Shown here: in pieces, positions 3-45,377 of the stretch
How positions within the stretch are numbered: the first letter of the stretch is position 1
Layout of the letters: every line of letters starts with the position of its first letter
Source: Thermogemmata fonticola
GTDB taxonomy: Bacteria > Planctomycetota > Planctomycetia > Gemmatales > Gemmataceae
Direction: 5' to 3'
Length of the DNA stretch: 55,205 bases
NCBI RefSeq assembly: GCF_013694095.1
Contig: NZ_JACEFB010000021.1
Coordinates: forward strand, 1-55,205
Made by a program: the position numbers and the translations under genes
The notes under the pieces: generated by a model
Databases searched by the model: none
What the model saw: the letters and a program-made list of their open reading frames with translations, nothing else
Told to the model about the DNA's origin: nothing

Positions 3-845
3 GATGTCAATGGATCGGATTTGACAAACGGCACTTCCGCGGCTGCCACAGGAACATCTCCGGGAGTTAACGGCAGTCATTCCACGACGGCGAATGGTCA
101 TGCGGAAGCAAAAATTGGCCAAAATCCGGGGGAATCTGGGCCTGCGAATGTTGCACCTGGTGGTTCCACCGCTTCGACTTCTTCCGAAAATGGTTCCCCG
201 TCTTCGTCCCCGAAGATAAGCTCTGAGAAGTTTGTCAGTTACAATCCAAAGGATATTCACACAGATTTGACAGTGGAAGCTGGGGAGGCATCGGCAGGTG
301 CAACGGCGGACGGCTCGGCTTTTTCGACTGCCGAAAGCGGGGAAAAATCGGGGACTGTCAAGCCGGCTCCAGGGACCGAAACGGCAGCGGGGGAGAACGG
401 GGACGAGCTGGACAATGGGGCTTGGACCGAGGACGAGGCGGCTTGGGACGAAGAGGGCGAGGACTGGGACGGGGAGGACGAGGATTGGGACGAAGGGGAT
501 GAGGAGGACGGCGGTTGGGACGAGGAAGACGAGGAGGGGCCGAACGGGCCGGGGAATGGCAGCGGCGGTCCGGGTGGTGGTGATGGCGATGGTTCCGGCG
601 GCGGCGGTTCGAGTGGTGGTGGTGATGGCGGTTCCCCGCGGGGTGGTCGAGGCGGACCTCGTGGCGGGCGTGGTGGGCCGGGTGCAGCGGGTGGCAGTGG
701 CGGAGCGGCGGGTTCTTCTCACAGTGACAGCGGTTTGTCCCAACGCAGTCGAAAATTCGATCCGTCGCAATTCTTCCGCTTCGGCATCCTGGACATTGGC
801 CCGCGGAATGAGGCCCGTTGCCGACGGGGCAGGAAGGCGGTGCGT
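3..845 (+). CDS. C-terminal part of a low-complexity acidic/RGG-rich protein (5' end outside window, 3' end unresolved)
   Basis: The frame is open from the first bases, so the start lies to the left of the window. The readable part is a Ser/Thr/Gly/Asn-rich stretch, then a strongly acidic block with repeated WDE/EDWD units (about bases 410-540), then a Gly-rich block ending in RGG/PRGG repeats (about 545-700). Acidic plus RGG tails are known on RNA-binding proteins such as helicases and pseudouridine synthases, but no catalytic domain is visible here, so the family is unknown. The first 300 bases are less GC-rich than the rest. No in-frame stop occurs before the transketolase gene, which ends on the opposite strand at 846. 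Either the stop was lost by an indel in the G-rich repeats or the gene overlaps the transketolase tail. The end given is only where the protein stops looking plausible. Confidence 0.45.
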
Positions 846-2900
846 TCAGCCTCCGAGTTGGGCCTTGGCCGCCGCCGCGACTGCTTCCGGGGTGAAGCCG
901 AAGTGGCGGGTGACATCCTTGAGGGGGGCCGAAGCGCCGAAGGAACGCATGGCCAGGATGGCTCCCGTGGGACCAGCGTAACGTTCCCAGCCGAGGGGGG
1001 ACGCCATTTCGACGCAGACGCGGGCGGTGAGGTGGGGCGGCAGGACGGCGTCGCGGTAGTCACGGGGTTGCTCTTCAAAGAGTTCCCAGGAGGGCATGCT
1101 GACGACACGGGCGGGGATGTTTTCCCGGTCCAGGAGTTCCGCAGCCGCGAGGCAGAGATGGACTTCACTCCCGCTGGCGATGAGGAGGACGCGGGGGTCG
1201 GGGGCGTCGCGGAGGACGTAAGCCCCGCGGGCCAGTCCGGAAGCCGGGGCGAGGCGGGAACGGTCCAGCGTGGGGACGGCCTGGCGGGTCAGGGCCAGAA
1301 GGACGGGGCGATGGGTTTGGGCCAGGGCAACGCGGTAGGCTTCCACGACTTCGTTGGCGTCGCAGGGGCGAATGACCAGGAGGTTCGGGATGGCGCGGAG
1401 GGCGGCGAGGTGCTCCACGGGCTGGTGGGTGGGTCCATCTTCGCCGACGGCTATGGAGTCATGGGTGAAGATGTAGAGGACGGGCAGGTGCATGAGGGCG
1501 GAGAGGCGGATGGCGGGCCGGCAGTAGTCGGTGAAGACGAGGAAGGAGGAACCGTAGGGGCGAAGGTGGGACAGGGCCAGGCCGTTGAGGATGGCAGCCA
1601 TCGCGTGTTCGCGGACTCCGAAGTGGATGTTGCGGCCCTGGGGGGAAGCGGCGGTGAAGACACCGGCTTCGGGGAACTTGAGGAAGGTCTTGGTGGAGGG
1701 GTTGAGGTCAGCGGAGCCACCCAAAAGCCAGGGGATGCGTTGGGCCAGGAGGTTGAGGACCTGGCCGGAGCTGTCGCGGGTGGCCAGTCCTTTGGGGTCC
1801 GGGGGAAAGGCCGGCAGGTCGCGGTCCCAGTGCGGCGGCAGCCGGCGTTGGAGCAGGAGCAGGAGCTGCTCCGCCAGTTCCGGGAACTGGTGGCGGTAAC
1901 GTTCCCAGAGGGCGTGCCAGAGTTGACGCGCTTGAGCACCGCGGCGTGCGAGGAGCTGCCGGAAGTGGTGGGCAGCCTCGGGGGGCACGAGGAACTGGGC
2001 GTCTTCGGGCCAGCCGTAGAAGCGTTTGGTGAGGCGGACCTCTTCGGCACCGAGGGGTTCGCCATGGGCGGCATGGGTGTCCTGCTTATGGGGGGCGCCG
2101 TAGCCGATGTGGGTGCGCAGGCAGATGAGGGTGGGGCGGTCGCGGACGCGGCGGGCTTCGTGGAAGGCCTCGGCGATGGCCTGAAGGTCATTCCCGTCGG
2201 CCACACGCAGGACGTGCCAGTGGCAGGCGCGGAAGCGGGCGGCCACGTCCTCGGTGAAGGCCAGCTCGGTCGGCCCGTCGATGGTGATGTGGTTGTCGTC
2301 GTAGAGGAGCGTCAGGTTGCCCAGGCGCAGATGCCCGGCGAGGGAGACGGCTTCAGCGGCGACGCCCTCCATGAGGCAGCCATCCCCGCAGAAGGCGTAG
2401 ATGTGGTGATCGAAGAGACCCTCGAAACCGGGGCGGGTAAAGTGGGCGGCCAGCCAGCGCTGGGCGATGGCCATCCCCACGGCATTGGCCACCCCTTGGC
2501 CGAGCGGGCCGGTGGTGGTCTCGACACCGGCGGTGAGGTGGTATTCGGGGTGTCCCGGCGTGCGGCTGCCGAGCTGGCGGAAGGCCTGGATTTGCTCCAG
2601 GGGCAAGGCCGGTTCCTCGGTGACTCGTCCCTGGTCATCGACATGGCGGATGCCAGCCAGATGGATCAGGGCGTACAGCAGCATGGAGGCATGGCCATTG
2701 GACAGGACGAAGCGATCGCGGTTGGGCCAGAGGGGATCGTCGGGATCATAGGTGAGGAAGCGGGACCAGAGGACGTAGGCGGCGGGGGCCAATCCCATCG
2801 GGGCGCCGGGGTGGCCGGAGTTGGCCTTCTGCACGGCGTCCATCGCCAGAGTCCGAATGGTGGTGATAGCCAGGCGATCCAGATCGGTGAATTCCTCCAT
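846..2900 (-). CDS. tkt: Transketolase
   Basis: This is a thiamine-diphosphate enzyme of the non-oxidative pentose phosphate pathway that moves two-carbon ketol units between sugar phosphates in the cytosol. The 684-residue product is of normal length. Visible family motifs include NSGHPGAPMG (His30), SNGHASML (His70), TPGHPEY (His117), the ThDP/metal motif GDGCLMEG near residue 172, FGVREHAMAAI with the catalytic glutamate of the pyrimidine domain, and HDSIAVGEDGPTHQPVE, the substrate-phosphate/His loop. The ATG at 2900 is preceded by GAGGAG at good spacing; the frame stays open further upstream but with no family similarity. It diverges from the HU-like gene at 3205 and converges on the partial gene at the left edge. 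There is no other pentose phosphate gene next to it. Confidence 0.96.
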   Translation of the reverse strand: MEEFTDLDRLAITTIRTLAMDAVQKANSGHPGAPMGLAPAAYVLWSRFLTYDPDDPLWPNRDRFVLSNGHASMLLYALIHLAGIRHVDDQGRVTEEPALPLEQIQAFRQLGSRTPGHPEYHLTAGVETTTGPLGQGVANAVGMAIAQRWLAAHFTRPGFEGLFDHHIYAFCGDGCLMEGVAAEAVSLAGHLRLGNLTLLYDDNHITIDGPTELAFTEDVAARFRACHWHVLRVADGNDLQAIAEAFHEARRVRDRPTLICLRTHIGYGAPHKQDTHAAHGEPLGAEEVRLTKRFYGWPEDAQFLVPPEAAHHFRQLLARRGAQARQLWHALWERYRHQFPELAEQLLLLLQRRLPPHWDRDLPAFPPDPKGLATRDSSGQVLNLLAQRIPWLLGGSADLNPSTKTFLKFPEAGVFTAASPQGRNIHFGVREHAMAAILNGLALSHLRPYGSSFLVFTDYCRPAIRLSALMHLPVLYIFTHDSIAVGEDGPTHQPVEHLAALRAIPNLLVIRPCDANEVVEAYRVALAQTHRPVLLALTRQAVPTLDRSRLAPASGLARGAYVLRDAPDPRVLLIASGSEVHLCLAAAELLDRENIPARVVSMPSWELFEEQPRDYRDAVLPPHLTARVCVEMASPLGWERYAGPTGAILAMRSFGASAPLKDVTRHFGFTPEAVAAAAKAQLGG

Positions 2901-3077
2901 GCATCTCCTCACACAGCAGGGATCGGGAAAAACAGCCCCGTTGCCGATGATGATAGGAAGGCTGCCCCGGCCCCGGCGAGAGGCGGACAAGGCGGGCCAC
3001 GGCGCCCAGGAGGTCGGAATAGTCGCCGTTTCTGGCACAAACGGGCGAAAAAAGCGGTAAAAACTAGCAAAAATCGC

Positions 3078-3105
3078 TTGACAAGAGCCGAAAAGATAGA
3101 AAAAT
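3078..3105 (+). promoter_or_regulatory. Candidate sigma70-type promoter for the HU-like gene
   Basis: A perfect -35 hexamer TTGACA (3078-3083) is followed after 16 bases by AAAAAT (3100-3105, four of six matches to TATAAT). It sits in an A-rich patch that is unusual for this GC-rich DNA, about 100 bases upstream of the HU start codon. It was read by eye and has no experimental support. Confidence 0.5.
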
Positions 3106-3204
3106 GCCTCATATTTGAGGGAAGAACGGCCAAGTCGCGGCGACTCTGGCCAATTTTGCCGGAGGTTCCGGGGTATCTGTCCCCTAGTAGTGGAGAAGCA
3201 TGTC

Positions 3205-3552
3205 ATGGCCAAAGCCAACGGTGCCAAGAGTGCGAGCAAGTCTCTGACCAAGAGCCAGTTCTTCACCGAGATCGCAGAGCGAACGGGCTTGAAGAAGGCC
3301 GATGTGGCGAAGGTCTTCGATGCCATCGCCGACATCATGAAGAAGCAACTGCGCGTCAGCAAGAACGACTCGGTCAAGTCGCTGACCTTGCCCGGCCTGC
3401 TCAAGGTGCGGGCCAAGTACGTCCCCGCGCAGAAGGGCGGCAAGGAGATGATCAATCGCTTCACCGGCGAGAAGATGATCACCAAGGACAAGCCGGCTTC
3501 CGTGCGGGTGACAGCGCGTGCTCTGAAGGCCCTGAAAGAGAAACTCATGTAA
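3205..3552 (+). CDS. HU/IHF-family DNA-binding protein
   Basis: This is a small nucleoid-associated protein of 115 residues that should bind and bend DNA as a dimer. An Ala/Lys/Ser N-terminal extension of about 13 residues precedes the HU fold: SLTKSQFFTEIAERTGLKK (helix 1), a helix with VAKVFDAIADIMKKQL, then the beta-arm region with a TLPGLLKVRAK strand and GEKMITKDKPASVRV, and a C-terminal helix. Canonical HU is about 90 residues; the longer planctomycete type differs in the arm. The ATG at 3205 has GGAG nine bases upstream; an in-frame ATG at 3115 would add 30 residues with no HU similarity. A TTGACA promoter lies about 100 bases upstream and a hairpin-T-run lies 52 bases after the stop, so the gene is probably monocistronic. 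Confidence 0.93.
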   Translation: MAKANGAKSASKSLTKSQFFTEIAERTGLKKADVAKVFDAIADIMKKQLRVSKNDSVKSLTLPGLLKVRAKYVPAQKGGKEMINRFTGEKMITKDKPASVRVTARALKALKEKLM

Positions 3553-3603
3553 GCCCGTCCCCTCTTCCTTCCCGATCGACCGTCTCGCTGCCGCTTGGCC
3601 CTG

Positions 3604-3625
3604 CTCCCGCGGCGTGGGAGTTTGT
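3604..3625 (+). terminator. Candidate intrinsic terminator after the HU-like gene
   Basis: CTCCCG (3604-3609) and TGGGAG (3615-3620) can form a six-pair stem, with one G-T pair, around a five-base loop. TTTGT follows directly. The short T-tract makes it a moderate candidate. Confidence 0.4.
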
Positions 3626-4007
3626 ATGGGACTCTGCGGCGTCCACGCCCCTCGATTCCTGCTCCCAGCGGGTGCTGCCCTCGCTGGCGCCGTACTGGCG
3701 GAGACGAGGCGCTGCCGGTGACACCGCCACGGGCGCTTCCGCCGAGGCGTTCCCTCCTTCCGCTGAGACCACCGTGAAAGCCGAGGGGAGCACGGAAACC
3801 TCCCGGCAAGCGGGCGGGGGCTTGACTGCCATTTTGGATCATTTGTACATTATATACGGGTATTCAGAAAAGGAAACAGTTTTCCGGCGGAAAATTCGGG
3901 AAGGGTCAGGCGGCAAGCGCGGGGCTGCTCCGGGAGCAGGGAGCCGGGACGGGGCTGATGACACAGCCCGGTCAGTTGACATCCGTGGGTCCGGTGTCAG
4001 CGGGTGG
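3626..4007. other. Intergenic region between HU-like gene and acyl-CoA dehydrogenase gene end
   Basis: There is no convincing coding potential. Short open frames on both strands are Pro/Arg/Gly-rich with no recognisable motif. Around 3836-3895 there is a locally AT-rich patch (TTTGTACATTATATACGGG and AAAAGGAAACAG). It could hold a promoter, but no gene follows it on the plus strand and on the minus strand it points back towards HU. Confidence 0.4.
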
Positions 4008-5963
<1,956 letters not shown>

Positions 5964-6032
5964 CGCCGCTTCTCCAAAGACAGGTTAGCGGGAACAAAGA
6001 CCCTGCCAGGCACGCCGGAGGACAAGACACCC

Positions 6033-8270
6033 TCATGGCCGGGCCTCCTGGGGATGAGAGGACTGAGCGGCGGGGGCCGCCCCGGCGGGGACGCGTTCGG
6101 AGGAGGCGGCGGGGTAGAAATCCCGCTCCTCGCTGGCCAGCATGCGGAGGAGGGCCGCAGGAGTAAAGCGGGGGCCAAAGCGGCGCTGGAGCACGTCCAA
6201 TTCCCGCACGACGCGGGGGATGCCCAAAGCATCGGCGGTGTGCAGCGGGCCGCCTCGGAAGGGTGCAAAACCAGTCCCCAGCACCATCGCCAGATCAATG
6301 ATCCAGGCTTCCTCGGCCACGCCGCTTTCCAGGCACCGGGCCGCCTCGTTGATCATCGGATAGATCAGCCGCTGCTGGAGTTCGCTCAGGCCGTTCTCCA
6401 CCTCTTCATCGCTCACGCTGGCCACAGCTTCCCCGCCGCGGACTTGCCCCCAGGGACTGACCCCCTTCTTCTTCTCCCCGTCATAGCGGTAGAAGCCGCG
6501 CCCGCTCTTTTTGCCCAAGGCTCCGTCCGCGACCATCGCGGCGAAGTACTCTGGGGTGGGACTGGGTTCGGCGGCCAAGGCAGCGAAGGTCCGGCTCACA
6601 TCCGCGGCGATGTCCACGCCGATTTGGTCCAGAAGTTCCAGCGGCCCCATCGGCATCCCGAAACGCACCGCGGCCCGATCGATTGCCTCCGCCGCTATCC
6701 CCTCCCGCAGCAAACGCACCGCCTCGTCCAGATACGGAAAGAGGATGCGATTGACCACAAAGCCGGGGCTATCGTTCACGACCACAGGCACCTTGCCGAC
6801 TTTGCGAACCAGTTCCACCAGGGCGGCGATGGCCTCTTCGCTGGTGAACGGGGTGCGGACCACTTCGACCAGGGGCATCTTGTGGACCGGGTTGAAGAAG
6901 TGCAGGCCGGCCACGCGCGGGGGCTGATCCACCGCTTCCGCCAGGCGCGTGATCGACAGGGCCGAGGTGTTCGACACCAGCACCGCCTCCGCTCCCAACT
7001 GCTCCGCGAGTTGCCGGAACACTTCCCGCTTGACCTCTTCCTTCTCGACGACGGCTTCGATGGCCAGGTCGGCTCCCGCCGCGGGTCCCCACTCCGCTGT
7101 CGCTGTCAGGCGCTGCAAGGCGGCTTCCGCCTCCGCTGCGGGCAAGACCCCTTTGCTGACCGCCGCGCGCGTCAGCTCCTCGACACGCTGGCGGGCCGCC
7201 GCGGCCAGGTCGGGTTGAATCTCCTTGATGACTACAGACAGGCCGTTGACAGCGAGCAGTTGGGCGATGCCGCTGCCCATGACGCCGCCGCCAACCACCA
7301 CGGCTTTCTGGAAGGCTCTCGGCCGTACGGCGGCACGCACCCAGGTCGAAGCTTTCCGGGCCTTCTCGCGTGCAAAGAACAGCTCGATGAGGCGCCGGGA
7401 CTGCGGCGTAAAGACCACTCGGCGGAACTCTTCCCGTTCCGCAGCGTATCCCTGCTCCACGCCGCCGCGCATCCCCGCTTCGATGGCCCGCAGCGCTGCC
7501 AGGAGCGCCGGATAATGCTCCGCCTTGATCCCCAGCCGCTTGCGCGCTTGCACCAGCAGCCACCAGCGCCCCGCCCAGGTGCCATCTACCAGCCGGTCCG
7601 TCAGGCTCCGCCGCGGATAGGGCACCGGCAAGTCCCGCAAGCGATCTGCCAGGAACGACTCAATCCCGGCCTCCCAGCTCTCCGGCGGATACACCGCATC
7701 GACCAGACCCGCTTCCCACGCTTTGCGGGCATGGAGGGTCGAGCCTTCAAGGATCATCGTCACCGCCCGGCGCCAGCCGATCAGCCGCGGCAGCCGTTGT
7801 GTTCCGCCCCAACCCGGAATCAAGCCCAATTGCACCTCCGGCAAGCCCAAGCGGGTCGAAGGATCATCCCGTGCGATGCGGAAGCGGCAGGCCAAAGCGA
7901 ACTCCAGGCCGCCCCCCAAGCACGGACCGTGGATCGCTGCGAGGGTCGGGCACGTCAGCCGTTCCAAGCGCGTGAACAAATCCTGCCCCGCCCGCAGCAC
8001 CGCCTCGACTTCCTCCTCCGTCTGCAACCGCTGGATTTGCTTGACATCCGCCCCGGCCAGAAACCCCGACGCCTTCCCGCTGCGGAACACCACAGCCCGC
8101 GGCAGGCTCCTTTCCCACCGCTCCACCAGCGACCGCAGCTCGGCAAACAACCCCTCCGTGAAGATGTTCACCGGCGAACCGCTCACATCGAAAGTCACCA
8201 CCTCCACCTCACGCTCATCCCGTTCCCATCGCAAATGCTCCCACGCTTCCTGAGCCACGATGGCCGCCAT
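6033..8270 (-). CDS. Fatty acid oxidation multifunctional protein (enoyl-CoA hydratase / 3-hydroxyacyl-CoA dehydrogenase)
   Basis: This bifunctional beta-oxidation alpha subunit resembles FadB/FadJ and has 745 residues (family about 715-730). The N-terminal crotonase domain shows the oxyanion-hole segment HGPCLGGGLEFALACRFRIA with Glu123, and GLPEVQLGLIPGWGGTQRLP with Glu145, the two catalytic glutamates of hydratases. The C-terminal half is a 3-hydroxyacyl-CoA dehydrogenase with the NAD-binding segment VVVGGGVMGSGIAQ, SNTSALSI, the signature LHFFNPVHKMPLVEVV carrying the catalytic histidine, and NDSPGFVVNRIL. A Pro/Ala-rich tail ends the protein. GGGAGG lies ahead of the ATG at 8270. It is the first gene of a two-gene unit with the acyl-CoA dehydrogenase 69 bases downstream. 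FadB and FadJ cannot be told apart from this sequence alone. Confidence 0.94.
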   Translation of the reverse strand: MAAIVAQEAWEHLRWERDEREVEVVTFDVSGSPVNIFTEGLFAELRSLVERWERSLPRAVVFRSGKASGFLAGADVKQIQRLQTEEEVEAVLRAGQDLFTRLERLTCPTLAAIHGPCLGGGLEFALACRFRIARDDPSTRLGLPEVQLGLIPGWGGTQRLPRLIGWRRAVTMILEGSTLHARKAWEAGLVDAVYPPESWEAGIESFLADRLRDLPVPYPRRSLTDRLVDGTWAGRWWLLVQARKRLGIKAEHYPALLAALRAIEAGMRGGVEQGYAAEREEFRRVVFTPQSRRLIELFFAREKARKASTWVRAAVRPRAFQKAVVVGGGVMGSGIAQLLAVNGLSVVIKEIQPDLAAAARQRVEELTRAAVSKGVLPAAEAEAALQRLTATAEWGPAAGADLAIEAVVEKEEVKREVFRQLAEQLGAEAVLVSNTSALSITRLAEAVDQPPRVAGLHFFNPVHKMPLVEVVRTPFTSEEAIAALVELVRKVGKVPVVVNDSPGFVVNRILFPYLDEAVRLLREGIAAEAIDRAAVRFGMPMGPLELLDQIGVDIAADVSRTFAALAAEPSPTPEYFAAMVADGALGKKSGRGFYRYDGEKKKGVSPWGQVRGGEAVASVSDEEVENGLSELQQRLIYPMINEAARCLESGVAEEAWIIDLAMVLGTGFAPFRGGPLHTADALGIPRVVRELDVLQRRFGPRFTPAALLRMLASEERDFYPAASSERVPAGAAPAAQSSHPQEARP

Positions 8271-9009
8271 GATCGTTCCTCCCCGGTTGAAGGTGCCGCG
8301 TCCTGCTTGCGTTCCGTCACATCCCGCTTTTCCCCGGCTCTTCGACTCTCACCCCTAGCTTACCCCATTCTACTCTCCCGCAACACCCAAACTCCAGGAA
8401 TTATCCTCCTCCAATTCCTACTACCATCAACTCCGACTGCCCTTCCTCTTCCTCCTGACCTCCCCCGGCAAGACACGTCCCTCCCCGGCTTGACAGACCG
8501 GCCGCCCGGTGCATCGCCGAAATGGACCGCCCGCAATCGATATGAGGGACAGAGGTATGTCACCGGCCTGCTTCCGCCCTCGCGGGAGAAGCTGCGGTTC
8601 CCGGTGGTCAACGACTGCCACCTGCTCCTGCTGGCCAGGGACTGCCAATGGTTCCTACTGGTCAACGAGTGCCACCTGCTCCTGCTGGCCAGGGACTGCT
8701 ACTTACGGGGAAAGCCTCGGCGGAAGAGGACCAACCGTAGTCCTGGAGCGTCGGTCGGACTGCGGCGGGGGAAGGAGAAACCTCAGCGGCAGGTCGAGAG
8801 GCGGGGCGAGACGGAGAAACTCCAGAGAAGACGGAAGCGAACGCCGCGGACAGAGCGGGCGTATAAAACATATCCGTCCATCCGACGCATGGCACGGTGC
8901 GGGGAGACGGCCCGCAAGGTGTCGGAGAGCGGGCGGATTCCGGCTGTGCCGCTGAGACCAGCGGTAAGTGGCAGAGTTGAGGGCTGTCGAGCGGAACGGG
9001 AGCAACGCC
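8271..9009. other. 739-base non-coding region upstream of the ABC permease gene
   Basis: This lies between the divergent beta-oxidation and permease genes. Besides the 27-bp tandem array listed separately (8606-8699) it contains pyrimidine-rich DNA at about 8370-8510 and purine-rich DNA at about 8760-8850. The open frames here are Arg/Ser/Pro-rich, and on the minus strand they simply translate the tandem repeat. I found no protein-like sequence. Confidence 0.5.
8606..8699. repeat. Tandem array, 27-bp degenerate unit (54-bp higher-order period)
   Basis: GGTCAACGACTGCCACCTGC at 8606 recurs with one change at 8660, giving a 54-bp period. Each 54-bp unit is itself two related 27-bp units, one beginning GGTCAACGA and the other GGCCAGGGACTGCC. 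About 3.5 units of 27 bp are present, about 310 bp upstream of the permease start codon. Confidence 0.8.
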
Positions 9010-10287
9010 ATGGGCGCGTGGCTGAGCGATCCAAGCATCCTCCTGGCGGGTTTGTTTTTAGCGTTGGTGCAATTTTTGGCGGCGTTGCCGTGGCTGTATG
9101 TGGTGGACCCGCGGGGCTTCCGCCGAGCTTTGGTCACTCCCTCGGCGATGATGTCGGTGGGATTGGGCTTATTGGCAGCAGGTGTGGCCCTGGCCATCTA
9201 CATGGGCTACAACACGGACTCGCGGACCCTCTCCTGGAACGGGCGGTACATCTACGGCGGCCTGTTGCATTTGCAACTCCTCATCGACCTGCTCATCGTG
9301 ATTCCCTACGGCGTGGTGGCGCTCTGGCCCAAGGGTGGAGCGGTGGCCTACGCGGCCTATCGGGAGGCGTGCCGGCAGCCGATGTTCTGGCTCATCACCC
9401 TGGGCGGCGTGCTTTTGACCTGGCTGTCGGTCTGCATCCCCTATTTCACCTTCGGCGACGACTACAAGATGATGAAGCAGATCGGCTTCGACATCGCCAT
9501 GCTAGCGGCGATCATCTTCGGCGTGCTTTCGGCGAGCATGTCGATCAGCGAGGAGATCGAGGGCCGGACGGCGGTCACCCTCATGAGCAAGCCGGTGAAT
9601 CGGCGGCAGTTTTTGATCGGCAAGTATGTGGGGATCATACTCGCCTGCCTGATCCTGACCCTGTTTTTGGGCTGGAACCTGACGTATGCCTTGCGAGCTG
9701 TGCGGGAGTTCGACCAGATCAACAACGATCCGGACCCGGTGGATCCCTATGCGCCGCTGAGCAAGGTCGTCGATCCGATGACTTTCCAAGCCCAGCGGAG
9801 TGTAGTGCCCTTGTTCGAGACTCCCGTGCCTTCCTCGCCTGGCAAGGCGGTGGCGCGGGGGGCGGGCCTGTGGTTTTCCGACGTAACGGCCCACACCCTC
9901 GGCCAGATGCTTGGCTTCGGCAAGGTGATGATCCTCGTGGCCATTGCTGCGGCGCTGGCGACACGCTTGAGCTTCGTCGTCAATATCGTGCTCTGCCTGC
10001 TCATCTACTTCCTGGGGCATTTGGCGCCGGTGGTGGTCCGCGTGACGGAATCAGCTTCCGGCACAGCGGTAGGGGCGGGATTGGTAGCCTTCCTCGGCAG
10101 GCTCTTCGACGTGCTCCTGCCCGCCCTGGAGTTCTTCAACATGGGTCCGGCCATCATCCGCGAAGCTCCGCTGGACCTGTGGCGATTCGGCGGCTACGTC
10201 CTCACTGTGCTGGGTTATTCCGTCCTCTACGCAGCCATCGCCCTCATCGTGGGCCTTCTCCTCTTCGAGGATCGGGACTTGGCCTGA
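9010..10287 (+). CDS. ABC-2-type transporter permease
   Basis: This 425-residue polytopic inner-membrane protein has an N-terminal helix (ILLAGLFLALVQFLAALPWL), several further hydrophobic segments in the first 150 residues, and a strongly hydrophobic C-terminal third. The segment with SASMSISEEIEGRTAVTLMS and KPVNRRQFLIGKYVG is the typical cytoplasmic loop of ABC-2 permeases ('EI..GT...L..KPV.R..F..GK'), known to contact the ATPase. The ATG at 9010 has GGGAG seven bases upstream; a GTG at 8968 is a weaker alternative start. No ATP-binding subunit is present nearby, so the ATPase must be encoded elsewhere. The substrate cannot be told. A large loop around residues 240-300 (Asp/Pro-rich) probably faces the periplasm. 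Confidence 0.85.
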   Translation: MGAWLSDPSILLAGLFLALVQFLAALPWLYVVDPRGFRRALVTPSAMMSVGLGLLAAGVALAIYMGYNTDSRTLSWNGRYIYGGLLHLQLLIDLLIVIPYGVVALWPKGGAVAYAAYREACRQPMFWLITLGGVLLTWLSVCIPYFTFGDDYKMMKQIGFDIAMLAAIIFGVLSASMSISEEIEGRTAVTLMSKPVNRRQFLIGKYVGIILACLILTLFLGWNLTYALRAVREFDQINNDPDPVDPYAPLSKVVDPMTFQAQRSVVPLFETPVPSSPGKAVARGAGLWFSDVTAHTLGQMLGFGKVMILVAIAAALATRLSFVVNIVLCLLIYFLGHLAPVVVRVTESASGTAVGAGLVAFLGRLFDVLLPALEFFNMGPAIIREAPLDLWRFGGYVLTVLGYSVLYAAIALIVGLLLFEDRDLA

Positions 10288-10725
10288 CAAGCGTCCGAGG
10301 ATGGGAAACTTCGCCGACTTGGCGCCTTTCCCGCTTCCCAGCCCAGCGGACCGTTCGCGAAACAACCCGCCCGTCACGAACACGGACCAGCGCCTGCTCT
10401 GCGGATACCCGGACCGGTCAACCTGAATCGGGGAAACGGCCAGAGCCAAACCGGTCCACGCGGCCGGGTGTTCCCCTTTTGACTCGACAAACTGTCGGCC
10501 CGCGGATAAGGTGAAAGAGATTCGCGGGCATCCCGTGTGGGCTTCCGATAAAAGCAGATTGAGCGGGGATTCTGCCCGTGCCGTTTCTTACCCCAGGAGA
10601 CATTCCAGCATACTCATCGGAGCAACGGCGCATTTCCCCGGCATCGCGCCCCGGAAAGTCTCCCGTTGTCCCCGAGTAGCCTTGGTTTCACCTTCCATTC
10701 CGGTTCCTTGACGAGGAGGTATCCC
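10288..10725. other. Intergenic region between permease and TerB-like genes
   Basis: This is 438 bases with no credible gene. A possible terminator lies at 10429-10480 and the TerB ribosome-binding site GAGGAGGT at 10713-10720. No clear promoter hexamers were recognised. Confidence 0.5.
10429..10480 (+). terminator. Weak candidate terminator downstream of the permease gene
   Basis: CGGGGAAACGGCC near 10429-10441 is largely complementary to GGCC...TTCCCC at about 10462-10476, and TTTT follows at 10477-10480. The loop is long (about 20 bases) and the stem is interrupted. Confidence 0.3.
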
Positions 10726-36821: not shown

Positions 36822-37709
36822 TTACCAATCGTTACCCAACTGATCCCCGACATTGGGGGTGAGAGCGGCCCACCAGGTCAGACCGGAAACCCGCTGCGAC
36901 ACAAAGCGCACGCTGCCATCCCCCAACGCCGTCTGAATCCCACCCACGTGCGGCGAACTGGCCCGACCGCCATCACAAATCCCGATACCATTGGAGGTCG
37001 GCGGCTGAATCTGCGGGGCCGATGCCGCACCCGTCGGCGTGCCTCCTAAGTCCGGCGAAGAGAACACCGGACCCCAATCCGGCCAATAGTTCTCGTTGTA
37101 GTTCCCGGAATTGCACCGCGCCAACTTCTCGGAGAAGAAGATCGTATTGGACGTGCCATCCGTGATGGCCGCGGGATAGCGAGTGTAGCCCAAGCCCCAA
37201 CCCGGATACACATTCCGGAAGACGCGGCCATTCACCCCATAACTCGAACGCGCCCAATTGTCCTGCGGGTCCGTATACTCCGCCGGACACAACAACTTCT
37301 TCGTCCGACCACGATCCGGCACATACACCCACTGCGAATAGGTTATGAAACTCCCATTCCGACCATCCGGGTCCGGCTGCGAACGCGTCTGGTCAAACAT
37401 CACTTGCTCTTCGATAAACGGCAGGATGTGCAGAAAGATACCGCCGTTGGAGTTATAGTTGGCCTGGGCATTGCGGGGATAGAGGCCGATGGACGGCGGC
37501 AGCTTCCCCTCATGCGTGTCCGCCGCATTGATCGTCGCCAACGCAATCTGCTTCAAACGATTCGAACAATCCGCACGCGCCGCCGCCTCCCGCACCTTCT
37601 GCACCGCGGGCAACAGCAACCCAATCAAAATCGCAATAATCGCAATCACTACCAACAACTCAATCAGCGTAAAACCACGACGCCACCCCAGGAGTGAGTA
37701 ACCTCTCAT
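36822..37709 (-). CDS. DUF1559 prepilin-like protein (copy 1)
   Basis: This 295-residue protein has a classic prepilin N-terminus, [20 protein letters not shown] followed by the hydrophobic helix and [17 protein letters not shown]. Cleavage would fall at G-F and Glu5 of the mature protein is present. The remaining DUF1559 domain shows [36 protein letters not shown] and the C-terminal block [23 protein letters not shown]1559 proteins are massively expanded in Planctomycetota and their function is unsettled. GGAGG seven bases before the ATG at 37709 fixes the start. It is nearly the same sequence as the gene at 38845-39765, with long stretches identical at DNA level. Confidence 0.95.
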   Translation of the reverse strand: MRGYSLLGWRRGFTLIELLVVIAIIAILIGLLLPAVQKVREAAARADCSNRLKQIALATINAADTHEGKLPPSIGLYPRNAQANYNSNGGIFLHILPFIEEQVMFDQTRSQPDPDGRNGSFITYSQWVYVPDRGRTKKLLCPAEYTDPQDNWARSSYGVNGRVFRNVYPGWGLGYTRYPAAITDGTSNTIFFSEKLARCNSGNYNENYWPDWGPVFSSPDLGGTPTGAASAPQIQPPTSNGIGICDGGRASSPHVGGIQTALGDGSVRFVSQRVSGLTWWAALTPNVGDQLGNDW

Positions 37710-38111
37710 GACAAACCTCCGAGACGGGAACAAATAGAAAGACAAAAACTCCGTAAGCGGTGAGTCCAGGCTGCTTACGTAACGGAAAATGCTCGACGCA
37801 TCTCCGTCAATTATGCAGCCTAACTGTTCCCGATCCCGGAGTCAAGGAAAAAACTTTACATTTTCATACAAATTTTCCCACTTCGCCCGTCCTGCGACGG
37901 GTTCTGCTATCACCTCCTGGGTCCTTGACCCGATCTATCGCCTCAGGCTCTTGCTGGGTTGAGGCCTGACGCGGTTGGGACCATCCCGGCTGCCCGGCTT
38001 GGCGTGAAGTCCCAATTCACCATTCCTGTCTCGGCGAAACAGGCCGCAATCGTCCCGCGGTTAGGACCTCCCCCTTCCCAGACGAATCCCCAATGGGGGG
38101 TCTGAGGCGGC
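37710..38111. other. Intergenic region upstream of DUF1559 copy 1
   Basis: This is 402 bases without a gene. It holds the candidate promoter at 37817-37845 and a strongly AT-rich patch (about 37845-37885). The remainder is ordinary GC-rich spacer after the second lipoprotein gene. Confidence 0.5.
37817..37845 (-). promoter_or_regulatory. Candidate promoter of DUF1559 copy 1
   Basis: On the minus strand TTGACT (37845-37840) and TAGGCT (37822-37817) are separated by 17 bases. The promoter would start transcription about 100 bases before the start codon at 37709. An A/T-rich tract lies directly upstream like an UP element. The paralogue has an equivalent element at 39872-39900, which strengthens the call. 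Confidence 0.5.
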
Positions 38112-38844: not shown

Positions 38845-39765
38845 TTACCAGTCGTTACCCAGTTGGTCTCCCAAGTTGGGGGTCAGGGCGGCCCACCAGG
38901 TCAGACCGGAAACCCGCTGCGACACAAAGCGCACGCTGCCGTCCCCCAACGCCGTCTGAATCCCACCCACGTGCGGCGAACTGGCCCGCGCTCCGTTGCA
39001 GATTCCCACACCGTTGGAGGTCGGCGGCTGAATCTGCGGCGCCGAGGCCGCACCCGTCGGCGTGCCGCTCATGTCTTGTGGCATCGGGTAGAGGATCGAT
39101 CCCCAGTCCGGCCAGTAGTTCTCGTTGTACGCGCCGCTGCTCCACTCCAACCCCAGGGTGGAGGAATTGCACCGCGCCAACTTCTCCGTGAAGAAAATCG
39201 TGTTCGACGTTCCATCGGTGATATGGGACGGATAGCGGGTGTAGCCCAGACCCCAGCCTGGATACACATGCCGGAAGATGCGGCCATTCACCCCATAACT
39301 CGAACGCGCCCAATTGTCCTGCGGGTCCGTATACTCCGCCGGACACAACAACTTCTTCGTCCGACCACGATCCGGCACATACACCCACTGCGAATAGGTT
39401 ATGAAACTCCCATTCCGACCATCCGGGTCCGGCTGCGAACGCGTCTGTTCCAGCATCGGCTGTTCTTCGATGAACTGCAAAATGTGGAGGTACAGCCCGC
39501 CATTCGTGTTGTAATGGGCTTGGGCATTGCGGGGGTAGAGGCCGATGGACGGCGGCAGCTTCCCCTCATGCGTGTCCGCCGCATTGATCGTCGCCAACGC
39601 AATCTGCTTCAAACGATTCGAACAGTCCGCACGCGCCGCCGCCTCCCGCACCTTCTGCACCGCGGGCAACAGCAACCCAATCAAAATCGCAATAATCGCA
39701 ATCACCACCAACAACTCAATCAGCGTAAAACCACGACGCCACACCGGAGAAGAAAACCCTCTCAT
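38845..39765 (-). CDS. DUF1559 prepilin-like protein (copy 2)
   Basis: This 306-residue protein has the start [20 protein letters not shown], preceded by GAGGAGG. The N-terminal helix, [36 protein letters not shown] and the C-terminal block [20 protein letters not shown] are the same as in copy 1. It differs from copy 1 mainly by an insertion after LARCNS ([20 protein letters not shown]) and a different loop before the final domain ([11 protein letters not shown]). The paralogues alternate between identical DNA blocks and diverged segments. It should be exported and processed at G-F by a prepilin peptidase. Confidence 0.95.
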
Positions 39766-40133
39766 GATCAACCTCCTCAAAGAAGACCGAGGTGCATCGA
39801 CGAGGCTTTCGTGAGCCACGAGTCTAGACTCACGAGGACGAAGAGTGCGAGTCTCTCTTCATCAAATCCCCAGATTAACGCCATTTATGAGATTCGTCAA
39901 GGTTTTTCTTCATTTTTTTGAAAAGGGATTGACGTGCCGCCTACCATCCGCAGCCAGCAAGCGGCGGCGCCAAGATCGAGTAACACTCGACTCTCATACC
40001 GAGAAAAAGAGGGGAAAGGGGCGGTTTCCCGCGCTCAGGGAAGGCGGAATGCCCCGAGGCAGCCGCGAGACGGGACGACCGGCGGAAGGGAAGAGGCTGG
40101 AGTGGCCTCGGCGGCCAGGGGAGCTTCCGCGCT
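39766..40133. other. Intergenic region upstream of DUF1559 copy 2
   Basis: This is 368 bases without a gene. It holds the candidate promoter at 39872-39900 with an AT-rich tract upstream (about 39900-39930), and GC-rich spacer next to the end of the HEAT-repeat gene. Confidence 0.5.
39872..39900 (-). promoter_or_regulatory. Candidate promoter of DUF1559 copy 2
   Basis: On the minus strand TTGACG (39900-39895) and TAATCT (39877-39872) are separated by exactly 17 bases, about 105 bases before the start codon. A T-rich tract lies just upstream. Spacing, distance and flanking composition match the promoter proposed for copy 1. Confidence 0.55.
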
Positions 40134-43100
40134 TCAGTTGCCCAATTTGAGGCGCTTCAAGGCCACCCGGCCCGCGGCATTGATTTGGGGATTGGAGTCG
40201 TTCTCAGCCAGGTAGGTCAGGCGTTTGACCACACGCTCGCGCAGCTCGGAGTTCAGGTCGTTGAGCCGCAATCGGCCCAGAGTATCGATGGCCCAGGAGC
40301 GATAGTCGAGGGGATAGGGCACGTTCCGCTGTCCTCCGGCGCGGCTGGGAGGCTTCCAGGCGGAAGTGGCCAGGAGCATTTCGTTCACAATCACCGTGTT
40401 GGGCCGACGGATGACCGCTTCCGCGATGGCCGGCCGCACCTTCTCGCTCTGCTCTGCCAGCTCGATCAGGGCCAGGAGAATCTCATCGGACTGATCGTTC
40501 AGGCTGGCCAGATGGATGCCGATCGCTTCGCGGGCTGGAAAGCTGAGGCGGGTATTGCGGCAGTGCGCTTCGAGAATGTTACGCCCGCGGGTGCCGAAGG
40601 AACCCAGCGCCTGGATCGCCGCGATGAGCAGTTCCTCCTGCGGGCTGATCTTGCCGTTTTCCCCGCCCTCCTCGGCCTTCAATTCGGGATGGGGCGTGTA
40701 GTTGGTCAGGATTTGATCCAGTATAGGGATGACCTTGTCCGCCACACGTGGGCCAATAGCCTGAAGGGCCTGCACCGCGGCGGCGCGCACCCGCAGGTCC
40801 TCATCCTTCTGAAGCCGCTCGATCAGATCGGGAACCGCCTCGGACGCATCCGTTTTCATTTCCTTGAGGCGCAGGGCGGCCTCCCGGCGGACCGGACCAT
40901 GCGAATGCCGCAACAAATCCCGCAACAGAATCAGATGCTGCGTCTCCGGCGGTACGACCATCGCCAGCAGAAGGGCGACTTCCTGAGCCAGCTCCGGGTT
41001 ATCTTCCGTCATCCCCTGATAACGGGCGATCAGTTCAACGAGCAAGCCGCGGGCTAGTTGGGGACGCTGTTGCAAACACTGCACCGCCATCCGGCGAATC
41101 GAGAGATCGGTATCCTTGAACAGAGGCGGGACGAGTTGTTCGAGTTGAGCTTGCAATAGCGGGTGCTTCAAGGCGTTTTGCGCAGCCAGGCGGCGGATTT
41201 CTAGGTTCGGGTCCCGGATCGCCTCGACCCAGATTTTCGCCTGTTCTGCCTCGCTACAGAGGGGCACCAGCAGGGTCAGGGCGCGCTGCCGAACCTCGGG
41301 ATGGTTATGGCGCAGCTTCTCCAGGAGCAGCGGCTTGTCATTGATATGGGCTTGGCCGTAGGTGGCGAGCAATTCCTTGGCTAGCTCCGCAATCTCAGCG
41401 TCGGGGTCCGCCACGCCTTCCAGGACCACTCCCAGCGCCACGCTGCGACCCGCCAGACCGGCCTGCTTGAGGATTTTGTACAAGTCCCGGCGTGCTTCCC
41501 CCTGGGCGACCTTGAGCAATTCCACTGCCAACGCGAGCTGTTCCTGCGGCAACGGCGGCGTATTGTTGGCAAACATGCGGATGGCGTAATTCCGCAAAGC
41601 CGGCGAGGGAGACTGCAAGCACTTGACCAGGTGAGCGGTGCAGGAGGCATCCGGCGGCGGCAGCGCATAGAGCTTGGCGATCAACTCCGCCTGCACTGTA
41701 CCCTGCGTGATCTCGGCCAGTTCGATGAGGCGGATGTGGCTCAGCTCGCCGTTTTTTCCAATGGCGGTAACGAGCAGTTTCTGGATTTCCGGCGGATACT
41801 TCGACAGTTTGGCGACGAGAATCGCAACGTCGACGTCGGGAAGGGTCGGCGTACCCTGGGCGAACATCTTGGCGGCGTAAAGGCGAGCGGCGGGGGAGGA
41901 GGAATCCAGAGCATCGAGGAGCGCCTTGGCCATCTCCGGGGACGGCGCTCCCAAGAGATAGAGAATCTGTTCAATCTCCTGTTGCAACTTCGGATCCGCC
42001 GTCGGCAGTAGGCGCAGCAGCACCGGAATGGCCGCCTGAGCACGGGACTTTTGCTCTCCGAGCTTCTGGAGGGCCTTGCTCCGTTCCTCGGCCGTCCCTT
42101 TTTCAACGACTTGGAGCAATTGCTCAACGTATTGCTTGGCCTGCGCCTCGGCCCTCGCCTGCCGTCCGCGAACCGGCGTCCAGGTCTGATTCTGCTTTTT
42201 GAAGTATTCGTTGACCAGATTTTCGATTTCGGAAACACGGATGTTGAAGCAGGTCTGGCGGTTCCGGGGATTGCGTTGCACCATCAGCCCCACCAATTCG
42301 CCATTGTCGTTGGCCACGGGTCCACCGTTGACATCCTTGTCGCTGACCGTGCGGGTGGCGAAGACCGCCTGTCGATTTTCGGGCATGTTTGGATCCACCA
42401 GCTTCCTGAGGCTTCGCAACATCTGGCGCTCGCTGTCGATCATCTCCTGGAGTTCATCGGCTTTCATCTCTTCGGCCAGCTCATCGAGGCCGAAAGTCTC
42501 AAGCATCTGCTTACTCCCTTGGAGAAGTTTTTCATTGGCATCGAGCAAATCCTCGAGGTCGTCGAGGAAGTTGTTATTCTTCTTGGGCTGGACCGTGTCC
42601 TGCGTCAGCTGCCACAATTTCGAGCGGCCCGCCACCGTGTTGCGCAGGGTGTAGACCTTCTGGTCCGGTTGCACCGTGGATTGCAATGGAAGAACGGCGG
42701 CCTGAGCGTTCGGAGCAAGCTGCTGCAGTTGGAGCAAAACCAGGTTGGCCTGCGAATAGAGCAGGACCGCTCGGCCCTTCGTGCGGAATGCTGGGGAAGA
42801 GCTGCTCTTGTACCGCGAGAAGTCATGGACCAGATTGTTCGAGGTTTTCTCGTACATCGGGAAATAGACCGTAATCTCCGGGTTGTTTTGCTGGGTGAAG
42901 ATTTGGCTACTGGTGACCGCCAGGCGATGGGAGGTGTCGATGATGCAACCCGTTTGGTAGTAGGTCCGTAAACCTTTCTTGACGGCCAGGAGGACCGAGC
43001 AGCGGGTCATCTCCCGCGCGATGTCCTGAGGAGACAGGGGGCCATCCGAGGGCGGCGGAGGTGGCGGGATGTCAGGAGGCGATCCGTCCCCATTGCCCCC

Positions 43101-43739
43101 ACCGCCGCCAGGCGGTTGCGATCCTCCCCCATCGCCGGAACCCCCTCCACCCTGGGATACATTTTCGTTTTTGACGTATTGCGTGTAGTAGTAATAACCC
43201 CCGATGCCGGCGCCGGCGAGCAGGATCAGGAAAAGGGGGATGCCGATGAGGAGGAGGATCAGTCCCGTGGAGGAGGGGGAGGAGGGCGTTGGCGCAGCGG
43301 GGGCGGCGGGGGGAACGGGACGGCGGGCTACCCCAGAACCGGCTCCCATTCGGCCAGCCGGAGCGGCGGGGGCCGGCAACCCCACTGCGGAAGGTGGGCG
43401 TGCTCCCGGTGCGGAAGCCGGCGGCGGACTGTAAGCCAGCGGAACGGCGGCAGGAGCCGGAGGGGTAGGCAGCGGCGGAGGCGGCACGATGCGGGCGGGC
43501 GTAATCGGAATCGGTGCGGCAGGCGGAGCGGCAGGGGTAGCGGGGCGCGGCGGCCCGGCAGAAGCCGCGGGTGTGCCCTCTGCACCGCCAGGATTCCATG
43601 AGGACCCCGGCGTCACCGCTCCTTCGCGAGCCAGTGGCACCAAAGCGACCCCACAGCCAGGACAGTGTGCCTTGGCCGAGGTGGTTTGCATCACATAGGA
43701 CTCCCCGCACTTCGGGCAAAACCAGCGGTTCAGATTCAT
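40134..43739 (-). CDS. Zinc-ribbon / inactive trypsin-like / HEAT-repeat membrane protein
   Basis: This 1201-residue protein has an N-terminal zinc ribbon with Cys8, Cys11, Cys26 and Cys29 (FCPKCGESY, AHCPGCG). A Pro/Ala-rich linker follows (to about 158), then a membrane helix (about 159-181) and a Gly-rich segment. A trypsin-like fold follows (about 225-500), in which all three catalytic positions appear replaced: TSSQIF where T..HV is expected (Gln279 for His), ANLVLLQL for DLALLQL (Asn332 for Asp) and DVNGGPVAND for GNSGGP (Asn471 for Ser). A charged helical insertion lies at about 380-455. The remainder (about 500-1201) is a long HEAT-repeat array. GGGAGGTG supports the ATG at 43739. It is probably a scaffold or regulator, not a protease. 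It has no operon partner. Confidence 0.88.
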   Translation of the reverse strand: MNLNRWFCPKCGESYVMQTTSAKAHCPGCGVALVPLAREGAVTPGSSWNPGGAEGTPAASAGPPRPATPAAPPAAPIPITPARIVPPPPLPTPPAPAAVPLAYSPPPASAPGARPPSAVGLPAPAAPAGRMGAGSGVARRPVPPAAPAAPTPSSPSSTGLILLLIGIPLFLILLAGAGIGGYYYYTQYVKNENVSQGGGGSGDGGGSQPPGGGGGNGDGSPPDIPPPPPPSDGPLSPQDIAREMTRCSVLLAVKKGLRTYYQTGCIIDTSHRLAVTSSQIFTQQNNPEITVYFPMYEKTSNNLVHDFSRYKSSSSPAFRTKGRAVLLYSQANLVLLQLQQLAPNAQAAVLPLQSTVQPDQKVYTLRNTVAGRSKLWQLTQDTVQPKKNNNFLDDLEDLLDANEKLLQGSKQMLETFGLDELAEEMKADELQEMIDSERQMLRSLRKLVDPNMPENRQAVFATRTVSDKDVNGGPVANDNGELVGLMVQRNPRNRQTCFNIRVSEIENLVNEYFKKQNQTWTPVRGRQARAEAQAKQYVEQLLQVVEKGTAEERSKALQKLGEQKSRAQAAIPVLLRLLPTADPKLQQEIEQILYLLGAPSPEMAKALLDALDSSSPAARLYAAKMFAQGTPTLPDVDVAILVAKLSKYPPEIQKLLVTAIGKNGELSHIRLIELAEITQGTVQAELIAKLYALPPPDASCTAHLVKCLQSPSPALRNYAIRMFANNTPPLPQEQLALAVELLKVAQGEARRDLYKILKQAGLAGRSVALGVVLEGVADPDAEIAELAKELLATYGQAHINDKPLLLEKLRHNHPEVRQRALTLLVPLCSEAEQAKIWVEAIRDPNLEIRRLAAQNALKHPLLQAQLEQLVPPLFKDTDLSIRRMAVQCLQQRPQLARGLLVELIARYQGMTEDNPELAQEVALLLAMVVPPETQHLILLRDLLRHSHGPVRREAALRLKEMKTDASEAVPDLIERLQKDEDLRVRAAAVQALQAIGPRVADKVIPILDQILTNYTPHPELKAEEGGENGKISPQEELLIAAIQALGSFGTRGRNILEAHCRNTRLSFPAREAIGIHLASLNDQSDEILLALIELAEQSEKVRPAIAEAVIRRPNTVIVNEMLLATSAWKPPSRAGGQRNVPYPLDYRSWAIDTLGRLRLNDLNSELRERVVKRLTYLAENDSNPQINAAGRVALKRLKLGN

Positions 43740-44512
43740 CGCTCTCACCTCCCGATGGAATACAGCCCAGCTTTTTTTTTCCGGCGGAAGAACGCCCCAA
43801 CGCCTCCGATGCTGCTCAACTTCACGAGCTTCCTGGACGGCAACGCGGACCTTCCCCCACGGGCGATCAAGCGGTAACTCCCAATACCATGAAGCGCTGG
43901 AAGGAGGATCCGCAGGTGGTAGCGGTACCACTGAGGCCGACGTCGCGTGAAATTGTAATGCGCTCGCACAAGTCATGCAAGCTCGGTAGGCGTTTTTTTC
44001 ATTGGAATATACTAACGATGATCAGAATTTTCTATACGTCTCGGAAGTGAAAGGGCACACATTGCCGCTTGGCACCACGAAGGGAGGAATAGGCCGTCCC
44101 CCCCGTGGGAGCTGCTCTTCATTCCCGAATCCCGACAGAATGCGGATCAACAGGATGAGGATCAGACAAAATGCGGTGCCGCCGGTGACAACTGCGTGAG
44201 GAAGCAGCAGGGAGGAGCGGCGAGCGGAGAAATCGGCGAACTACCGAGAGGCTAGCGGGCCGAGGAAAAGCCGGCCCTCGACTCTGGCCGGCGCCGATAG
44301 AGCCAACGTGGCTTTGAGCTGAACGGGCCGAGGAAAAGCCGGCCCTCGACTCTGGCCGGCGCCGACAGAGCCAACGTGGCTTTGAGCTGAACGGGCCGAG
44401 GAAAAGCCGGCCCTCGACTCTGGCCGGCGCCGACAGGGCTAGCTTGGCTTTACAACCGCAGGCGAACGGCACCAGGGTGAAGGGTCAGGAAAAGCGGACG
44501 GATGGGGAGGAC
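43740..44512. other. Intergenic region with 68-bp hairpin repeats
   Basis: This is 773 bases between the HEAT-repeat gene and the acidic-protein gene. The parts outside the repeat array (43740-44255 and 44458-44512) show no convincing gene; AT-rich spots at 43990-44045 could hold a promoter for the HEAT gene. Frames across the array only translate the repeat. Confidence 0.5.
44256..44457. repeat. Three 68-bp direct repeats with two hairpins per unit
   Basis: The unit begins CGGGCCGAGGAAAAGCCGGC. Starts at 44256, 44324 and 44392 give an exact 68-bp period; the third copy diverges after about 48 bases. Each unit contains GCCGGCC-9-GGCCGGC (a seven-pair stem) and the smaller AGCCA-3-TGGCT (five pairs; intact in the first two). 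No T-run follows the stems. Confidence 0.9.
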
Positions 44513-44917
44513 TCAATCCTCGTCCTCATCGTCATCGTCCTCATCCTCGTCATAGTCCTCGTCTTCGTCGTCCTCGTCCTCGTACTCATCGAAGTCGTCA
44601 TCCTCGTCGAAATCTTCCTCCTCGTCGAAGTCTTCGAGTTCGTCTTCATCCTCGAAGTCTTCGTCGAAGTCGTCATCCTCATCGAATTCGTCGTCGAGGT
44701 CTTCGTCGTCGAAGTCCTCATCCTCGTCGTCGAAGTCCTCATCCTCGTCGTCGTCGTAGTCCTCGTCGTCATCGTCGTAGTCGTCCTCATCGTCATCATC
44801 GTAAGCGAAGAGGTCGGGGAGGACGGGGAGAGCGCGGAGATCGTCCTGATCTTCCAGGGTTGGCGGCATGGGCCAGGTACGGGATGTCAAGGGTTCGAGC
44901 AGAATGCGTGCAGTCAT
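44513..44917 (-). CDS. Very acidic Asp/Glu-rich protein
   Basis: This 134-residue protein has an ordinary N-terminal 40 residues (MTARILLEPLTSRTWPMPPT and DDLRALPVLPDLFAYDDDD), followed by about 95 residues that are almost only Asp and Glu with regularly spaced Tyr/Phe (for example YDDDDEDYDDDEDEDFDDED). GAGGAA eight bases before the ATG at 44917 supports the start. Acidic tails of this type can bind basic proteins, metal ions or mimic DNA; there is no direct clue to which. The DNA is a diverging GAN/GAY triplet repeat, so the tail may vary in length between strains. Confidence 0.72.
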   Translation of the reverse strand: MTARILLEPLTSRTWPMPPTLEDQDDLRALPVLPDLFAYDDDDEDDYDDDDEDYDDDEDEDFDDEDEDFDDEDLDDEFDEDDDFDEDFEDEDELEDFDEEEDFDEDDDFDEYEDEDDEDEDYDEDEDDDDEDED

Positions 44918-45377
44918 GGGCAATTCCTCAAGTATAGGTGACGGCCGTGGGCCGCTGCCGACAAGGCCAACGGCGGCAGGCCGCTGTCCACTGTCACACG
45001 GGGGAAAATCCTCCTGGGGGTGTCTGCCCTCACAGACAGATCAATCCCCTTATACGGAAGCTCAGGGGGAGAGGCTAGAGCGTCAGGGTGGCGTGCAGGG
45101 CCACGAGCCAACGGCGGCCTCCTCCCGGAGCAAGGTAGATGCTTCTTAGGGAAGCGGAGCGAGGGCGTCAAGCCAGAGCCTGTTTTTTTCCTGCCAATCC
45201 TAAGTTATTGTGAAAAATTGATTTAGGATGCCGAAAGCCGAAGGGAACGAGGGACGCTCCAGCACCCCGCGGCAGCGCAAGAGCGGACTCGGAAGGGCGC
45301 TGTGGAAAACTCGGAATCTCGAAGGCGGATCGGCAAACAGGTAGGCAGGCGCGCTAGGGGAGACGGCATCCTGACAG

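Follow-up and report, generated by a model that had tools for sequence, protein, structure and literature searches.

A protein of 1201 aa encoded by Thermogemmata fonticola was found to carry an S1 (HtrA/Deg-type) domain in which all catalytic residues are replaced, placed between a single membrane helix (TM) and a long HEAT solenoid. With a probability of roughly 60%, as judged from sequence comparison and predicted structure, this protein belongs, as a non-catalytic and membrane-anchored member, to a Gemmatales zinc ribbon-TM-S1-HEAT family, and the dead S1 domain would act as a structural or binding module. According to this proposal, the S1 domain has lost its entire catalytic apparatus, retained its two-barrel core and acquired a helical hairpin. 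A cytoplasmic location is probable for the zinc ribbon, and the dead S1 domain and the solenoid probably lie beyond the membrane and join partner proteins or peptides there; the S1 domain, located at the end of the solenoid nearest the membrane, would be a structural or binding module. The fold, the catalytic loss, the homology along the chain, the active relatives, the protease-less sisters and the selection acting on the sister scaffold come from sequence and prediction; the topology, the binding role and the partners are inferred.

The analyzed DNA (55,205 bp; hereafter the window) is the complete contig C21 of a 4.81-Mb genome. The ORF at positions 40134–43976 of the minus strand is open throughout, and the ATG at position 43739 was used as the start (CDS 40134–43739, stop codon included). 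A Shine-Dalgarno-like sequence, GGGAGGTGA, can be read 5 bases upstream of this ATG (43745–43753, minus strand). The other two frames of the same strand contain 22–33 stops (7 to 36 across other frames), and the GC3 is of the coding type in both the protease and the HEAT parts of the gene. Frameshift decay or an assembly error was ruled out, with frame and GC3 both intact.

The chain begins with a zinc ribbon, CPKC (residues 8–11)-x14-CPGC (residues 26–29) (43653–43718, minus strand, as are all features below), whose CxxC pairs are co-located in many relatives. A Pro/Ala-rich linker leads to the membrane helix (residues 159–182; 43194–43265), recognized by direct reading and hydrophobicity at a position shared with relatives, and a Gly/Pro linker leads on to the S1 domain (residues 236–516; 42192–43034), which was delimited by alignments and the predicted fold. 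The zinc ribbon and membrane helix of the original prediction thus fit residues 8–29 and 159–182. The HEAT solenoid with a C-terminal module (residues ~540–1201; 40137–42122) was defined by Pfam (HEAT_2, 8e-24), the full-length model and the HEAT tree; the repeats proposed earlier are therefore present, and their extent is ~650 residues (~545–1201) rather than about 700. Since basic residues outnumber acidic ones N-terminal to the membrane helix in most relatives, a cytoplasmic zinc ribbon and an S1-HEAT part outside the membrane are suggested. A scan of the protein against NCBIfam returned HEAT look-alikes only, far below the cut-off. A defence-system reading was rejected, the PADLOC matches being confined to the HEAT part.

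The AlphaFold model of the S1 domain, built on an alignment with 47 relatives, is confident (mean pLDDT 86.7, pTM 0.85) and shows a DegS/DegP-like double beta-barrel. Foldseek (best E 4e-11) and VIA-align matched it with DegQ, DegP, DegS, HtrA1 and Rv3671c, and DegS/HtrA were the closest solved structures (Z 22–23); the comparison with HtrA/DegS that had been proposed as a check thus yielded a confident S1 fold (Z ~23). Pfam Trypsin_2 matched weakly, under the curated cut-off (E 0.011 for the whole protein, 0.00058 for the domain alone), and an E of 1.7e-73 was obtained with a profile that contains the domain itself and so matches by construction. Independent support for the S1 assignment is given by the best pairwise match in other genomes (3e-13, 30% identity) together with the fold and, judged from these, the S1 identity of the domain is no chance resemblance. 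The full-length model (pTM 0.40) does not fix the packing of the S1 domain against the HEAT part. The helical insertion claimed earlier was recovered as a 58-residue hairpin (residues 390–447; 42399–42572) with predicted helices at 390–415 and 419–447, absent from the aligned relatives. The single-domain active protease of the congener (L014/L191) also has an insertion in about this place, but a different and shorter one.

Alignments with 17 and with 47 related domains agree that Q279 (42903–42905), N332 (42744–42746) and N471 occupy the catalytic His, Asp and Ser columns, as originally predicted, and a mechanical triad survey of profile-matched S1 domains again returned Q/N/N. The equivalents of Gly193 and Asp194 are also replaced (alignment with the 17 related domains), so that D469-V470-N471 (42327–42335) stands in place of the oxyanion/nucleophile G-D-S. 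The fold motifs around these positions are kept, in line with the earlier reading: VTSSQIF aligns with LTNYHVV of the relatives, ANLVLLQL with DLALVQL, and DVNGGPVANDNGELVGL with GDSGGPVVNDRGELVGV; likewise retained are the invariant F, W and G residues of the 47-relative alignment. An intact triad at other positions, the finding that would have spoken against the original prediction, was looked for in alignments with active relatives and ruled out. On the basis of these replacements the S1 domain is predicted with high confidence to be catalytically dead. That other residues of the domain support catalysis is most improbable: enzymes are in general able to recruit alternative residues, but here the triad, Gly193 and Asp194 have all been exchanged, and none of the triad positions is occupied by Ser, Cys or His.

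The search for active relatives proved successful, since homologs of the same layout with H/D/S were found, the triad being mostly intact in Gemmatales relatives with this layout. Gemmatales proteins of related layout with H/D/S include L063, L066, L174, L177 and L071, among others, and the window protein is collinear with the active relatives L107, L108 and L113 from the S1 domain into the HEAT part. It therefore shows both the domain order and the collinear homology by which the zinc ribbon-TM-S1-HEAT family was defined in this analysis; no name for this family and, in the open-access literature, no paper describing it was found. Its domain order is shared by L063/L108, L177, L066/L107 and L174/L113 (the last two pairs without the ribbon), which differ from it in keeping H/D/S and, where aligned, in lacking the 390–447 hairpin. 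The CxxC pairs, present before the membrane helix in the window protein, are missing in L066, L071 and L174, and L063 contains a second S1 domain within its HEAT part.

Degenerate triads recur among HEAT-linked S1 domains: S/D/N in L180 (layout zinc ribbon-TM-S1-HEAT), R/D/S and Q/A/G in the first and second domains of L064, N/E/S in the second domain of L068, S/I/S in L076 and Q/N/N in the window protein. Counted by domain, 6/18 HEAT-linked S1 domains are degenerate vs 0/62 in single-domain S1 proteins (0/44 once loci obtained by the GDSGGP pattern are dropped); the probability that chance would place all six in the HEAT set is 6e-5 (3e-4 for the smaller set), uncorrected for kinship and locus choice. 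The original prediction had named, as the case against it, homologs that retain H/D/S with this copy as an isolated decay; the former is what was observed, and the latter does not hold, with degenerate copies recurring among HEAT-linked members. A single clade for all HEAT-linked S1 domains was rejected (AU p 2.6e-5), so HEAT linkage arose more than once or was lost repeatedly. The window S1 domain is compatible with a place within the core HEAT clade (AU p 0.77), but its branch is too long for placement by S1 alone. In L070/L143 (KatS3mg105), a protease-HEAT gene is broken by a frameshift within the S1 domain, reflecting either a sequencing error or decay.

The C-terminal module used as a query matched proteins of two other genomes, G054 and G057 (E 1e-17). 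These proteins, L226 and L227, respectively, consist of a zinc ribbon, a Pro linker, a TM and HEAT repeats with the C-terminal module of the window protein, to which they are nearest in these last two parts, and they lack a protease domain. In the HEAT tree the three proteins group together (support 100/99), nested in a group with protease-HEAT members (94/94); a three-protein profile revealed no additional member across the order. The dN/dS of L226 vs L227 (0.25 overall; zinc ribbon 0.14, HEAT 0.23) indicates that the protease-less scaffold is under purifying selection, which lends indirect support to the scaffold role proposed earlier. Most members of this family have an active S1 domain, several a dead one and the two nearest relatives of the window protein none, which suggests that the scaffold is more important than cutting. 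The simplest history would run from an active protease through inactivation to deletion in the sister line, its root, and hence its direction, being inferred. Given the recurrent degenerate HEAT-linked copies and the protease-less nearest relatives, the window protein is a step in a recurrent active-dead-deleted series and no isolated accident.

The window's genome offers a second case. On contig 6 it encodes a protein of 720 aa (L036; G000:C6:116855-118054), with a counterpart in the congener (L190 in G001), that combines a pair of S1 domains with TPR-like repeats behind them; the first S1 domain has H/D/S and the second A/Q/P. The second S1 domain is degenerate in all 11 tandem proteins retrieved (11/11), and a single clade unites these domains (SH-aLRT 99). 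When the two species of the genus are compared, the dead domain (57% identity, dN 0.37) is conserved to the same degree as its active partner (56%, dN 0.38; dS saturated), hence this lineage is able to maintain dead S1 domains. L036/L190 thus represent an active and pseudoprotease pair conserved within one chain.

No close ortholog of the window protein was present in 95 genomes of the family, including the congener G001, or among 392 genomes sampled from the phylum, and the S1 domain had no match in GTDB 220 contigs, a scan from which the window's own genome or very close ones may be missing. In G001, one flank of the locus is conserved (a DUF1549 gene and an acidic protein) and is followed by phosphoesterase-like and epimerase-like genes (named from sequence); the opposite flank ends at the contig end. 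The phosphoesterase ortholog sits elsewhere in the window's genome, which indicates that the region has been rearranged. The acidic frame (44513–44923, minus strand) is small and extremely rich in Asp/Glu, and its position is conserved in the congener. A tandem pair of very similar DUF1559 prepilin-like genes is located at 36822–37745 and 38845–39819; the congener contig ends within this repeat.

The main rival explanation, possible but rather doubtful, is that proteolysis is no longer needed and the S1 domain is a vestige under relaxed constraint, tolerated as a folded spacer, which the sisters deleted. In the S1 trees, the branch of the window protein exceeds all others by a wide margin (2.43 vs a median of 0.37), and in the HEAT tree its branch amounts to 2.5 times the median (1.5 vs 0.6); the two lengths fit relaxed constraint on the S1 domain. 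The protease-less sisters sharing zinc ribbon, TM and HEAT, and the congener without an ortholog, where one conserved flank gives way to other genes, point in the same direction. However, the core fold and the frame are intact with confidently predicted strands, a structured helical hairpin has been gained and the alignment-invariant F, W and G positions are retained. A 1201-codon frame still open at ~30% identity makes neutral drift hardly plausible, and so do the coding GC3, the intact fold and the newly acquired hairpin, although the constraint on the S1 domain may be relaxed.

The preferred reading, a structural or binding module, may be extended to a transmembrane pseudoprotease receptor or scaffold, in which the extracytoplasmic S1 cleft would bind peptides uncut, the HEAT part would hold clients and the cytoplasmic ribbon would relay their state inward. 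We regard this extension as unlikely; if true, the protein would be the product of a family that repeatedly converts proteases to non-catalytic modules and then discards them. The earlier suggestion that the dead domain senses something is unproven, with no telling neighbor gene and no ortholog in which Q/N/N could be compared.

The window protein adds to a known kind, the bacterial S1 pseudoproteases, few of which, to our knowledge, have been characterized in detail; the characterized example found in the literature, MamO, is the closest precedent. MamO is a metal-binding, trypsin-like pseudoprotease of the magnetosome required for MamE-dependent proteolysis, and pseudoproteases in magnetosome systems arose repeatedly (PMC4794232). 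The two share a bacterial trypsin-like domain, a membrane location, active HtrA kin, and the degenerate triad with a non-glycine residue at position 193 that typify MamO (PMC4794232). Unlike the window protein, MamO has a TauE-like transporter domain (absent from the window protein in the Pfam scan), no HEAT repeats or zinc ribbon, a known function and a defined gene cluster with an active partner. A corresponding role, in which the dead protease would stimulate or control an active S1 paralog of the same cell, e.g. in a mixed oligomer, is quite improbable: besides the MamO precedent (PMC4794232), several active S1 proteins occur in the window's genome and the tandem protein joins an active and a dead S1 domain, but no active S1 gene lies next to the window gene. 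With DegS/HtrA (S1C) the window protein shares the S1C fold and a membrane anchor; it differs in its zinc ribbon ahead of the membrane helix, its helical insertion, HEAT repeats instead of C-terminal PDZ domain(s) as in DegP/DegS (Pfam), and in having Q279/N332/N471 and D469 instead of the His-Asp-Ser triad and oxyanion glycine of active S1C proteases.

Within one family, a single membrane scaffold thus occurs with an active, a partly damaged or a fully dead protease, or with none, and catalytic loss is concentrated in the HEAT-linked and tandem contexts; this lets one test when and why a cell retains a protease fold after catalysis is lost.

The C-terminal module accompanies kinases and proteases alike, an example being a Ser/Thr protein kinase-TM-HEAT fusion in G044 (L229:789-4022) that contains the module of the window protein. 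Elsewhere in the window, a 3497-aa open frame (21–10514, plus strand) runs antisense to genes for transketolase, acyl-CoA dehydrogenase and fatty oxidation; since it has no Pfam match, it is very likely a spurious antisense frame.
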